This document shows, piece by piece, positions 57,251 through 61,415 of a stretch of 64,000 bases of DNA. Both the position numbers and the translations under genes were made by a program. Every line of letters starts with the position of its first letter. Within the stretch, counting starts at the first letter, position 1. The notes under the pieces were generated by a model that saw only the letters and a program-made list of their open reading frames with translations, ran no database searches and was not told the origin of the DNA. The DNA is from Alkaliphilus serpentinus (GTDB lineage: Bacteria; Bacillota; Clostridia; Peptostreptococcales; Natronincolaceae): assembly GCF_009017255.1 (NCBI RefSeq), contig NZ_WBZB01000013.1:124001-188000 (forward strand), given 5' to 3'.

Positions 57251-58309
57251 TCAATAACTAAAGCTTTTATCCCTCTTAAACTTCGTTTTTTTCTTTCTAT
57301 TCTCTTGTATTCTAGCCAATTGTAGCTTCTTATTTTCAAACCTCTTCATTTCCCTTTGAAGCTTTTTATAGCTCTTTAATCGATCTTCGGTAAGTACTCC
57401 CTCATTGATGGCAGCTATTACGGTACAGCCAGGCTCACTGGTATGCTGGCAATCTTTATAAAAACAGTTTTTTGCAATGGTTTCAATATCGTTAAAGGTT
57501 TCATGAACCCCATCTGTTCCATCCCATAATTGAAATTCCCGCATACCCGGAGTGTCAATTATTAATCCCCCATCCTTAAGTAGCACAAGCTGTCGATGGG
57601 TGGTGGTATGTCTACCCCTATCATCGGTTTCTCTAATGTCCTGTACCTCTAATAGCTCTTCTCCGGCTAAACAGTTAATTAGAGTTGATTTACCAACTCC
57701 AGAAGATCCCAGGATGGCAATGGTCTTTCCTTCTTTGCAATAGTTTTTTAGCTCTTCTAATCCCCTACCGTCGTAAGAGCTGATAATGTGAATGGTAACA
57801 CCTATAGCTATGGCCTCCAGTTGGCTGATGTAGGCCTCAATATCCTGACATAAATCTGCCTTACTTAAAATTATAACAGGATTGCCTCCACTTTCCCATG
57901 CCATTGTTAAATATCTTTCAATTCGTCTTATGTTGAAATCCCTATTTAATGAGCTAATAATAAAAACCGTATCGAAGTTTGCTGCAATGATTTGCTCTTC
58001 CGTTTCAACCCCGGCTACCTTTCTGGAGAATTTACTCCATCGAGGTAATGTAGCATGGATGGTAGCCTTCATTTCCTGAGGTCTAATTGTAATGACTACC
58101 CAATCTCCTACTGCTGGATAATCGGTGTGGCTTGAGGCATGAAACCTCATTTTTCCTGAAACCTCACCTAATACCTCCCCAACGGAGGTAAGGATTCTAT
58201 AGATGTGCTTGTGCTCGATAACAATCCGTCCTACCTCAAAACTTTTTTCCTTATATTCCATAAAACTTTTTTCTAAAAACTCATTCCAACCATATTTCTT
58301 TAGATTCAT
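57251..58309 (-). CDS. rsgA: Ribosome small subunit-dependent GTPase A
   Basis: RsgA/YjeQ, 352 aa, late 30S assembly GTPase. OB domain at about 20-100, then the circularly permuted GTPase: G4 ILSKADLC, G1 GSSGVGKST, G3 DTPGMREF. The zinc site follows: C-x4-C in NCFYKDC, His in QHTSEPGC and that Cys. ATG 58307-58309 follows AGAAGGAA; the longer ORF to 58351 is not supported. Confidence 0.94.
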   Translation of the reverse strand: MNLKKYGWNEFLEKSFMEYKEKSFEVGRIVIEHKHIYRILTSVGEVLGEVSGKMRFHASSHTDYPAVGDWVVITIRPQEMKATIHATLPRWSKFSRKVAGVETEEQIIAANFDTVFIISSLNRDFNIRRIERYLTMAWESGGNPVIILSKADLCQDIEAYISQLEAIAIGVTIHIISSYDGRGLEELKNYCKEGKTIAILGSSGVGKSTLINCLAGEELLEVQDIRETDDRGRHTTTHRQLVLLKDGGLIIDTPGMREFQLWDGTDGVHETFNDIETIAKNCFYKDCQHTSEPGCTVIAAINEGVLTEDRLKSYKKLQREMKRFENKKLQLARIQENRKKKTKFKRDKSFSY

Positions 58310-58349
58310 TTTATTAAATTCCTTCTTTCTATTATTTAAAATTAGACAC

Positions 58350-58380
58350 AAAAAAACCGCAGTCTATAACCCGCCCGCGG
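58350..58380 (-). terminator. Weak hairpin before rsgA
   Basis: On the minus strand CCGC...GCGG followed by seven T. It lies about 40 bases before rsgA and could attenuate it or terminate upstream transcription. Confidence 0.4.
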
Positions 58381-58566: not shown

Positions 58567-58679
58567 AATTCAACACTCCTTCCCGTTTAATATTGTTCAT
58601 CATTACCGGGCACCCTTTTATTATATGCATTATTTTAAGAAAAATCAAATAAAAATCTTTAAAATTCTGTAAAAATTCA

Positions 58680-58708
58680 TAAAAAAACCCACCAGGATGG
58701 TGGGTTTT
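58680..58708 (-). terminator. Terminator of the MerT-like gene
   Basis: AAACCCACCA and TGGTGGGTTT form a stem with loop GGA, followed on the minus strand by TTTTTTT. Confidence 0.85.
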
Positions 58709-58762
58709 AGATTGAAGACAAAGTGTTCAAGCTGCAGGCTAACTGGTGGGTTTCTAATCTAA

Positions 58763-59071
58763 TTACAGAATCTTATCTAAAAAAAGCGGTGAAAGTAAAA
58801 TTACCAACACAAGTATAGTTGAAATCCATATGACGATTTCAGAAGCTTTACTTACCCTTCCATTGGCCATGCGATAGTGGGAATAAATAAGTGAAATAAC
58901 TGCAAACACCTTAAAATATTGTTGATAAGGTCTTAATACAGAAATAAAAGATAATCCTATGCCGCTAAGACCTAGCGACGCAATTAATAATGGTAGCACT
59001 CAGCAAACTGATGACAATAGAGCTGATATAACTGATCCAACATTCAGTGCTGTATTTCTTACTTCCTTCAT
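58763..59071 (-). CDS. MerT-like membrane protein with in-frame TGA (candidate selenocysteine)
   Basis: 102 residues if TGA at 59000-59002 (codon 24) is read as selenocysteine. It starts at ATG 59069-59071 after GGGGGG, 21 bases past the topB stop. Three helices. The first reads SALLSSVCU then VLPLLIASLGLSGIG and matches the MerT region where a Cys-Cys pair in helix 1 carries Hg(II); the second Cys is replaced by U. SVLRPYQQYFKV matches the MerT loop. A SECIS-like hairpin lies downstream. MerT's second Cys pair is missing. GTG right after the TGA gives the short conventional ORF (58763-58999), without its own ribosome-binding site. Confidence 0.82.
58961..58979 (-). promoter_or_regulatory. 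SECIS-like hairpin
   Basis: On the RNA GTCGCTA pairs with TAGCGGC (seven pairs, one G-U) around a GGTCT loop. The hairpin starts 20 bases after the TGA and the loop G lies 27 bases after it. The E. coli fdhF SECIS also presents AGGUCU at its apex. Bacterial SECIS elements sit in the coding region at about this distance. Confidence 0.75.
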
Positions 59072-59092
59072 TTTAACCCCCCATTTCTAAGA

Positions 59093-61279
59093 TTATTTAA
59101 GCTTGAGCTTTGACAACGCGTCTGCCAAAGCAGTATTTATTGGTTCATCCTTCGTCTTGCTTTGTTCCTTCATAAATTTAGCAACCTCTTTTTTAGATGG
59201 CTTTCCAGTTTCATTTTTCTTTCTCTCCTTAAAGGCTGTAAGCTTTTCTTTATAGCCACATTGACAAACAAAAATCTGCCCCTCACCTTCACCTCTTAGC
59301 TCAAGCTTTTTATGACAATTGGGGCACCTTGCGTTGGTGACTTTTGATATTCCCTTTCTATAGCCGCATTCTCTATCCTGGCAAACATATAGCTTACCCT
59401 TTTTACCCTTAACCTCCAGTAAATATTTGCCACACTCTGGGCATTTGTTTTTGGTTAAGTTATCGTGCCTAAAGGTTTCATTACTATTTTTAATTTCATG
59501 AACAATGTCTTTTGTATAGTTGATAATTTCACCAATAAAGCCATCTCTATGAACTATTCCTTTGGCTATATCAGCTAGTTTTTGCTCCCACTCAGCTGTC
59601 AAAGCGGGTGATTTTATATCCTCCGGTGCTAGTTGTAGTAGTTGTAGACCTTTTGAGGTTATATATATCTCTCTACCCCTCTTTTCAATCACAAAGCTGC
59701 TGAAAAGCTTTTCAATTATATCAGCTCTGGTGGCTACTGTACCAATACCTCCAGCTTCACCTATGGTTTTAATCAATTCCTTATCGTCCTTAGGCATGTA
59801 CTGAACTGGGTTCTCCATAGCCGATAATAATGTTCCCTCATTAAAGGGTTGTGGGGGCTTAGTTTCTCCCTTGGTTTGATTTATGCTGACAATTTTAACT
59901 GTATCACCTTTGTTAACGGCTGGTAAAAATTGCTCTGCTGGATCATCGTCATCCTCATCAACTATAGAACTATTATAGACCATCTTCCAGCCCTGGTCTA
60001 TTATAATCTTACCCCTTGCTAAAAATACCTCCTCTCCTATTGCTGCTTTGATGGTGGTCTGTTGATAAATAAAGGGTGGATGTAAAACTGCTAAAAACCT
60101 TTTAACCACTAGGTCATATATCCTTTTTTCCTTTTCATTCAATGCTCCTAAAAAAGCCTTCACTTCAGTAGGAATAATTGCGTGGTGGTCTGTAACCTTA
60201 CTATCATCAACAAAGGATTTATGAACTTTTAAACTCTCCTTTAAAAGCTTCGTAGTAATTCCTTTATAGGGCCCAACTCCGCAAGCTGTAATCCGATCCT
60301 TTAAGGTATCCACGATATCCTTTGAAATATATCTTGAATCGGTTCTTGGATAGGTCAATAGCTTGTGATTTTCATACAAACTCTGCATAATAGATAAGGT
60401 TTCCTTGGCGGAATAGCCAAAGATGTTGTTGGCCTCCCTCTGTAGCTCTGTTAAACTATAAAGCTGAGGGGCGAAAACCTTTTTATTGGCTTTATCAATA
60501 TCTATGATTTTACCTTCTTTATTTCTAATGGATGACAAAATCATTTCAATTTTCTTTAAGTCAAAAGTTTTTGGTTCTTTGGTTTCTTTCTCCTGCCAGA
60601 TAAGCTTTAGATCCTCCGTCTGGGCAGTTATACCATAATAGGTCTTGGGCTTGAAGCTCTTAATCTCTTCCTCCCTTCTAGCAATCATGGCAAGGGTTGG
60701 AGTTTGTACTCGACCACAGGAAAGCTGGGCGTTATATTTAACTGTTAAGGCTCTTGTAGCATTAATACCCACTATCCAATCGGCTTCTGCCCTGGCGACT
60801 GCCGACTCATAGAGGTTCTCAAAGTCCTTTCCATTTCTAAGGTTATTAAATCCATCCTTAATGGCTTTATCTGTTACAGAGGATATCCACAACCTTTTTA
60901 TTGGCTTCTTTACTCTACATTTCTCAATAATCCACCTTGCAACAAGTTCTCCCTCCCTACCTGCATCGGTGGCAATAATAATTTCCGAAACATCCTTTCT
61001 AAGGATTTGTTCCTTAACAGAATGAAATTGTTTTCCAGTTTGCTTTATAACCACCAGCTTCATAGGCTTTGGTATTATTGGTAAATCTTCTATTCTCCAG
61101 GTTTTGAAGCGATCATTGTAAATTTCTGGATCGGCATGGGTTACCAGATGTCCAAGGGCCCATGTTACAACATAATGAGCCCCCTCTATATAGCCATTTC
61201 CTTTCTTGGTACAGCCCAAAACCCTTGCTATATCTCTAGCCACCGAAGGCTTCTCTGCTAAAACAAGCTTTAATCCCAT
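59093..61279 (-). CDS. topB: DNA topoisomerase III
   Basis: Type IA topoisomerase, 728 aa. Toprim domain with LVLAEKPSVARDIARVLG and IIATDAGREGELVARWI; strand-passage core with catalytic Tyr in TYPRTDSRYIS; GEAGGIGTVATRADIIEKL. Two C-terminal zinc ribbons: CPECGKYL...CQDRECGY and CPNCHKKL...CQCGY. The ORF extends to 61327, but the Toprim start motif places ATG 61277-61279 as the start, with AAGGGAG 11 bases upstream. The MerT-like gene follows in the same direction. Confidence 0.95.
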   Translation of the reverse strand: MGLKLVLAEKPSVARDIARVLGCTKKGNGYIEGAHYVVTWALGHLVTHADPEIYNDRFKTWRIEDLPIIPKPMKLVVIKQTGKQFHSVKEQILRKDVSEIIIATDAGREGELVARWIIEKCRVKKPIKRLWISSVTDKAIKDGFNNLRNGKDFENLYESAVARAEADWIVGINATRALTVKYNAQLSCGRVQTPTLAMIARREEEIKSFKPKTYYGITAQTEDLKLIWQEKETKEPKTFDLKKIEMILSSIRNKEGKIIDIDKANKKVFAPQLYSLTELQREANNIFGYSAKETLSIMQSLYENHKLLTYPRTDSRYISKDIVDTLKDRITACGVGPYKGITTKLLKESLKVHKSFVDDSKVTDHHAIIPTEVKAFLGALNEKEKRIYDLVVKRFLAVLHPPFIYQQTTIKAAIGEEVFLARGKIIIDQGWKMVYNSSIVDEDDDDPAEQFLPAVNKGDTVKIVSINQTKGETKPPQPFNEGTLLSAMENPVQYMPKDDKELIKTIGEAGGIGTVATRADIIEKLFSSFVIEKRGREIYITSKGLQLLQLAPEDIKSPALTAEWEQKLADIAKGIVHRDGFIGEIINYTKDIVHEIKNSNETFRHDNLTKNKCPECGKYLLEVKGKKGKLYVCQDRECGYRKGISKVTNARCPNCHKKLELRGEGEGQIFVCQCGYKEKLTAFKERKKNETGKPSKKEVAKFMKEQSKTKDEPINTALADALSKLKLK

Positions 61280-61415
61280 GTAAGTTATAACTCCCTTCAT
61301 TAAATAATACCTGTAATATTTTATCAAGTGTCTCTGATGGTGGTGCCCCCTGAGGGAATCTATTTAGTCGTTCTTCCAGCCGTTTGTAGGCTGATTTTCC
61401 TGTTATATGTGACAT
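61236..61415 (-). pseudogene. Truncated gene overlapping the start of topB
   Basis: ATG 61413-61415 after AGGGAGGGGG opens MSHITGKSAYKRLEERLNRF then PQGAPPSETLDKILQVLF. From memory this matches the N-terminus of a clostridial 4Fe-4S protein of about 300 aa. The reading then runs into topB in another frame and stops after 59 codons. It looks like the 5' end of a gene deleted up to topB, now donating its promoter and ribosome-binding site. Confidence 0.45.

Follow-up and report, generated by a model that had tools for sequence, protein, structure and literature searches.

The locus raises the question of how a short minus-strand reading frame interrupted by a single TGA codon is decoded, and what its product might do for the cell. 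The frame lies within the window, by which we mean the whole 64,000 nt stretch of Alkaliphilus serpentinus DNA that was analysed. On a direct reading of the sequence, an ATG at 59071 (minus strand) opens a frame of 102 codons that runs to a TAA ending at 58763. The features of the region are, in the direction of transcription:

59093..61327, minus strand: topB (DNA topoisomerase III), the upstream neighbour, with a gap of 21 nt (ORF list and neighbour scan)
59077..59082, minus strand: probable ribosome-binding site GGGGGG, 5 nt 5' of the ATG (read directly)
58763..59071, minus strand: gene for a predicted selenocysteine (Sec)-containing MerT-like membrane protein (102 aa, Sec24; from the frame, the PF02411 match of 42 bits and the relatives)
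59003..59005, minus strand: Cys23 codon (TGC), directly 5' of the TGA and encoding the sole cysteine of the protein (sequence reading)
59000..59002, minus strand: in-frame TGA, read as Sec, residue 24 (48 frames, counting this one, have it at the aligned position)
58961..58979, minus strand: SECIS-like hairpin of 7 pairs with the loop GGUCU, the loop beginning at nt 28 after the UGA (folding and comparison)
58681..58708, minus strand: terminator-like hairpin with a T run, 3' of the MerT-like gene (by eye)
57251..58351, minus strand: rsgA-like GTPase gene, the next gene downstream, about 410 nt away (ORF list and neighbour scan)

An earlier note on this DNA had described an ATG ORF with a ribosome-binding site that reads through a TGA placed after a Cys codon, and had stated that annotation retains only the tail from GTG 58999. 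Both descriptions were borne out. The frame and its ribosome-binding site are present as described, and the mechanical ORF list contains a 78 aa tail alone, beginning at the GTG directly after the TGA, and no read-through frame. The topB gene and the MerT-like gene are probably co-transcribed. The terminator-like hairpin was absent among the sites given by the pattern scan, and the promoter scan returned 10 sites against 9.2 expected.

The selA, selB, selC and selD genes, which the earlier note had proposed looking for, were all found in the genome, the completeness of which is given as 99.75%. A tRNA-Sec with a UCA anticodon scored 72.7 bits, SelB (379 bits) and SelA (629 bits) are encoded by adjoining genes, and SelD scored 408 bits (L080, C34:32983-33906). 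The SelD frame itself contains one in-frame TGA (SAGUAGKIGP). Two other frames of this genome also carry an in-frame TGA. The first, L088 (C50:27841-28005), is a P-type metal ATPase frame with the TGA in its first HMA domain (GLDUASC), and resembles the catalogued UxxC kind of cation ATPase. The second, L098 on the reverse strand of C15, has the TGA in the context GAGUGFG and many Cys codons, and by eye resembles the C-GCAxxG-C-C selenoproteins.

Searches of family, class and phylum genomes, with each locus counted once, recovered 48 MerT-like frames, that of the window included, in which a single TGA occupies the aligned site, and five Cys-Cys forms. The window protein gave 13 matches in 12 of 20 family genomes (its own among them); 12 of these matches contain one TGA and one is stop-free. 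An alignment, A1, gave 11 matches in 391 class genomes, the new ones being six TGA forms and one without TGA, and 35 matches in 28 of 398 phylum genomes. Of the phylum matches, 32 had one TGA, two had none and one had a TAA, which is the end of a Cys-Cys form. One match of the class search, in G121, was dropped as junk (four TGA and two TAA codons, E 8.4e-4). Named genomes yielded nothing when scanned with the single protein and two loci when scanned with the alignment, and tblastn against plasmids and phages gave no match. The Pfam MerT model was too insensitive as a six-frame probe of the 391 class genomes, matching six genomes with one match over the cut-off; L034 and L037, two of these six matches, were dropped as frames that by eye are unrelated. 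The Cys that partners Sec stands at -1 in 33 of the 48 TGA forms (CU) and at -3 in the remaining 15 (CxxU). Sec is the prevailing form in the subfamily as sampled by these searches, which drew samples and started from the window protein.

SelB (E<=1e-60) was present in all 41 genomes with a TGA form, namely the 26 of the phylum set and all 15 from elsewhere. With SelB found in 266 of the 398 phylum genomes, 26 of 26 would occur by chance with a probability of 1.8e-5 (hypergeometric, genomes taken as independent). Among the eight family genomes with no MerT-like match, seven nevertheless have SelB. SelB is missing from three of the four genomes that have only Cys-Cys forms (G019, G220 and G768) and present in the fourth (G464). 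The earlier note had suggested looking for Cys at position 24 in homologues from species without selenium, and Cys is indeed found there in the three SelB-less genomes. In our tree, L025 and L042, both Cys-Cys forms, are each paired with a CU row (100/98 and 99/96), as would be expected if Sec disappeared together with its machinery.

A divergent Cys-Cys MerT-like type was also observed in SelB-bearing genomes, represented by L075 in G464 and by L093 in G613, the latter alongside TGA forms. Not every Cys form, therefore, reflects loss of the Sec machinery.

Purifying selection acts on either side of the TGA, with pN/pS values of 0.48 upstream, 0.45 downstream and 0.30 in the hairpin codons (28 pairs of eight close sequences). 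The recurrence of the TGA at one position in 48 frames led us to reject a sequencing error or dead gene. A reading of the TGA as Trp was rejected on the Cys aligned with it in five relatives and the presence of the Sec machinery. That translation stops at the TGA, leaving the GTG 58999 ORF as a separate gene or decayed remnant, would suit an ORF list showing the GTG tail alone and a GTG immediately after the TGA, but is extremely improbable given that the TGA, the frame and both flanks are conserved across 48 frames that span many families of the phylum, that pN/pS is below 0.5 on either side, and that Cys replaces the TGA in three SelB-less genomes.

The seven-pair hairpin with a GGUCU loop that had been claimed 20 bases downstream of the TGA is present as described, pairing 58979-58973 with 58967-58961 (minus strand). 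The fold is unremarkable in the window sequence alone (64 nt, z 0.54; an equally good fold in 144 of 200 shuffles), and we rejected the single-sequence fold as proof of a SECIS element on this z value. As good a hairpin arose in 4 of 60 synonymous recodings of the window sequence. In 41 of 42 distinct stretches the loop starts with GG, but a conserved Gly codon dictates these two letters, so GG by itself proves nothing.

Covariation was assessed in these 42 distinct downstream stretches, drawn from 44, with L093-L097 left out. Stem pairs were formed in 78% of cells, compared with 66% (sd 1.7) in shuffled sets and 32-50% in slid registers, and changes on both sides of a pair were seen in 42 cells, compared with 16 in shuffles. 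None of 500 shuffles reached either value, though these counts are not probabilities, as the sequences are related and shuffling does not remove relatedness. The number of pair types, a third measure of covariation, was not above shuffles (352 of 500 as high). Individual rows form three to seven of the seven pairs, four of the 42 forming only three in this register. Compared with synonymous recodings, the best SECIS-like hairpin had a mean z of -1.33 over the 44 Sec rows, as opposed to -0.14 over four Cys rows. Its loop falls at nt 26-29 in 38 Sec rows and at other positions in the remaining six. On this comparative evidence, the predicted stem covaries across the relatives and the place of the hairpin is kept in most of them. 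A search of Rfam over 58600-59400 gave 16 weak matches, none above the gathering score.

Two results of the comparison go beyond chance and support the Sec reading: 48 frames share the position of the TGA, and the stem covaries. We regard it as very nearly certain, on strong comparative support, that the UGA at 59002-59000 is decoded as selenocysteine. The claim that this codon specifies Sec is upheld by the four Sec genes, by Cys in the three SelB-less genomes and by the covarying stem.

The product had also been claimed as a relative of MerT, a transporter with Cys-Sec in place of Cys-Cys. With the TGA read as Cys, the window protein matched the Pfam MerT model (PF02411) at 42 bits against a cut-off of 32.9, a comparison made for the window protein only. 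The same model matched all 13 members of alignment A1, which come from the window protein's own taxonomic family, at E<=0.01. The relationship is thus supported, although the match was weaker in the six-frame genome search (36.3 bits, neighbours included). Classical MerT has three membrane helices, a vicinal Cys pair in helix 1 and a second Cys pair on a cytosolic loop. Cys23-Sec24 stands at the place of the vicinal pair of helix 1, where the relatives L025 and L042 have Cys-Cys, and the count of 48 TGA to five Cys-Cys forms at the aligned site shows the description of the pair to have been right. The second, cytosolic Cys pair was sought in the window protein and is absent, Cys23 being its only Cys. 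Similarly, 42 of 44 Sec proteins (a set that leaves out four of the 48 TGA forms) contain exactly one Cys, the partner of Sec.

A structure model placed helices at residues 2-32, 38-70 and 75-101, but is weak (three sequences, mean pLDDT 68.8), and the hydropathy profile is roughly three-peaked with a low middle peak. The weak model and the hydropathy are compatible with three membrane helices and a position of Cys23-Sec24 in helix 1. A profile search against solved structures found none.

We propose, with somewhat better than even confidence, that the locus encodes a Sec-containing MerT-like membrane protein with a role in handling soft metals. The product would be an inner-membrane protein of 102 residues in the MerT superfamily, probably with three helices, and its UGA would be decoded by the host SelA, SelB, SelC and SelD with the hairpin 20 nt downstream acting as SECIS. 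Cys23 and Sec24 of helix 1, at the classical MerT Cys-Cys site, would be its sole thiol and selenol. The pair would most likely bind a soft, thiophilic metal or metalloid ion, which may then be passed across the membrane to a soluble thiol. The existence of Cys-Cys relatives in genomes without SelB suggests that Sec serves in this protein as a stronger but exchangeable ligand. Many selenoproteins function as redox enzymes; a selenol as a ligand in the metal site of a transporter would test the use of Sec for metal affinity.

The window copy sits between topB and rsgA, with no metal gene directly adjoining, and by eye L021 and L025 also come after a topoisomerase-like frame. Metal-related context was found at several relatives, in a scan of ten proteins chosen as informative-looking among the neighbours of 48 loci, Cys-Cys loci included. 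L029, from the same taxonomic family, is followed by the genes for an ArsR-type regulator and a MerA-type reductase (the fetched stretch contains the first 219 residues of the latter). L053 is beside ArsR and a CopZ-like protein, L054 beside MerR, and L042 and L077 beside CopZ-like proteins; on the opposite strand, L025 has a metal-sensing repressor nearby and L063 has HMA domains. The CopZ-like downstream neighbour of L077 has an in-frame TGA of its own (GRUC), which would make two close selenoprotein genes.

In the genome of the window, no MerA scored above the cut-off, which is 454 bits. The two best matches to the MerA model (365 and 354 bits) resemble lipoamide dehydrogenases by eye, and lack a C-terminal Cys-Cys. 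The same genome encodes six HMA stretches, of which one contains a TGA, as well as a single CopZ-type zinc domain at another place. A classical mercury-resistance transporter, which would import Hg(II) and pass it to mercuric reductase with Sec in place of one Cys, would agree with the MerT family match and with the position of L029 upstream of an ArsR-type regulator and a partial MerA-type reductase. However, the genome without MerA over the cut-off, the neighbours topB and rsgA, and the missing second Cys pair make this function highly doubtful for the window protein.

The relatives of the CxxU type point in another direction. With a rhodanese profile built from eight neighbours, 53 loci were searched at E<=1e-5, in flanks of about 1.5 kb that are shorter at contig ends and in L093-L097. 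A rhodanese-like gene was found just downstream of all 15 CxxU forms (L057, L059, L060, L064, L065, L067, L070, L072, L073, L074, L078 and L094-L097), eight of whose neighbours had built the profile and seven had not, and at none of the 33 CU or five Cys-Cys loci. The Pfam Rhodanese model (PF00581) matched eight of eight neighbours scanned, and by eye 14 of the 15 rhodanese-like neighbours have a lipoprotein-type signal. When a tree was built from 46 rows and the motif columns were masked, three changes were required to explain CxxU and three to explain the rhodanese neighbour. There is one supported independent contrast between the two characters (three on all branches); all are concordant, and too few for a test. 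A single CxxU clade is weakly rejected (p-AU 0.04). The long branches L075 and L076 were omitted from this tree, and L093-L097 are in neither tree, nor in the hairpin and pN/pS sets.

It is possible, if on balance unlikely, that the selenoprotein is a membrane carrier for thiol/selenol redox or sulfur transfer rather than a metal transporter, with the Cys-Sec pair cycling between selenylsulfide and reduced forms or carrying persulfide sulfur. Such a role would be consistent with the rhodanese-like gene downstream of every CxxU relative and its frequent lipoprotein-type signal, with the single Cys, the partner of Sec, in nearly all Sec proteins, and with a genome that lacks a MerA over the cut-off. 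Yet the window protein is of the CU type and has no rhodanese neighbour, several CU relatives adjoin metal regulators, CopZ-like proteins or a MerA-type reductase, and the tree offers just the one supported contrast between the two types.

More tentatively still, both types could belong to one picture, which we think improbable as a whole. Sec would be usual in a widespread MerT-like subfamily with two alternative sites in the same helix, Cys-Sec and Cys-x-x-Sec. The Cys-x-x-Sec form, together with an exported rhodanese-type lipoprotein, would constitute a membrane sulfur/selenium transfer (or redox) relay, in which the MerT fold has turned from metal to chalcogen carrier; the stand-alone Cys-Sec form of the window, with no recognisable MerA, would not serve classical mercury resistance either. 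The link between Cys position and rhodanese (15/15 versus 0/38) is a testable hint of one fold with two chemistries. For the window protein itself, a soft-metal role of the Cys23-Sec24 pair is the reading that we prefer.

Proteins of this kind have been catalogued before. A 'putative mercuric transport protein' of PF02411 is tabled as a predicted selenoprotein (ABB16073.1; PMC9312934, PMC13188914), and the motif C/SxxU is given for the mercuric transport selenoprotein, credited to Zhang and Gladyshev 2007 (PMC13188914). An entry of the same name is tabled in PMC2398784, in a row that we take as two Sec sequences and one Cys homologue, and the roles of such selenoproteins in heavy-metal detoxification are said to need further study (PMC13188914). 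Going by these entries, Sec-MerT is already known as a predicted selenoprotein. Among the literature matches listed, from a collection that leaves out most subscription papers, titles and abstract openings showed no experimental work on Sec-MerT or a rhodanese partner. The present analysis adds the breadth of the family, the correlation with SelB, the two forms of the site (CU and CxxU) and the link between CxxU and rhodanese.

The stand-alone Sec form is one of a large group of proteins prone to be overlooked by automatic annotation. No NCBIfam model scored over its cut-off for the window protein or for the eight other stand-alone Sec forms (9/9 below), and automatic annotation is therefore likely to cut this form at the TGA. 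The model for RC607-type MerT (NF033560) was the top NCBIfam match for eight of these nine proteins, and the third for L024.

Compared by table entries, the window protein shares its Pfam family and a predicted Sec with the catalogued ABB16073.1, and its Ser at -3 from Sec fits the motif C/SxxU; the table passages are silent on a Cys directly before Sec, on neighbouring rhodanese genes and on how widely the family is spread. The protein is like RC607-type MerT (NF033560) and classical MerT (PF02411, NF010314) in size and in the site of the helix 1 Cys pair, but differs from them in having a predicted Sec in place of the second Cys, no further Cys and no mer operon. Its relationship to NF045683, the NCBIfam model for a MerT/CopZ fusion-like heavy metal transport selenoprotein of 235 positions, is confined to the N-terminal part (29.4 bits, residues 7-66). 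The window protein has no CopZ part and scores far below the cut-off of 375 for that model, which nevertheless, in keeping with the Sec predicted here, is named as a selenoprotein.
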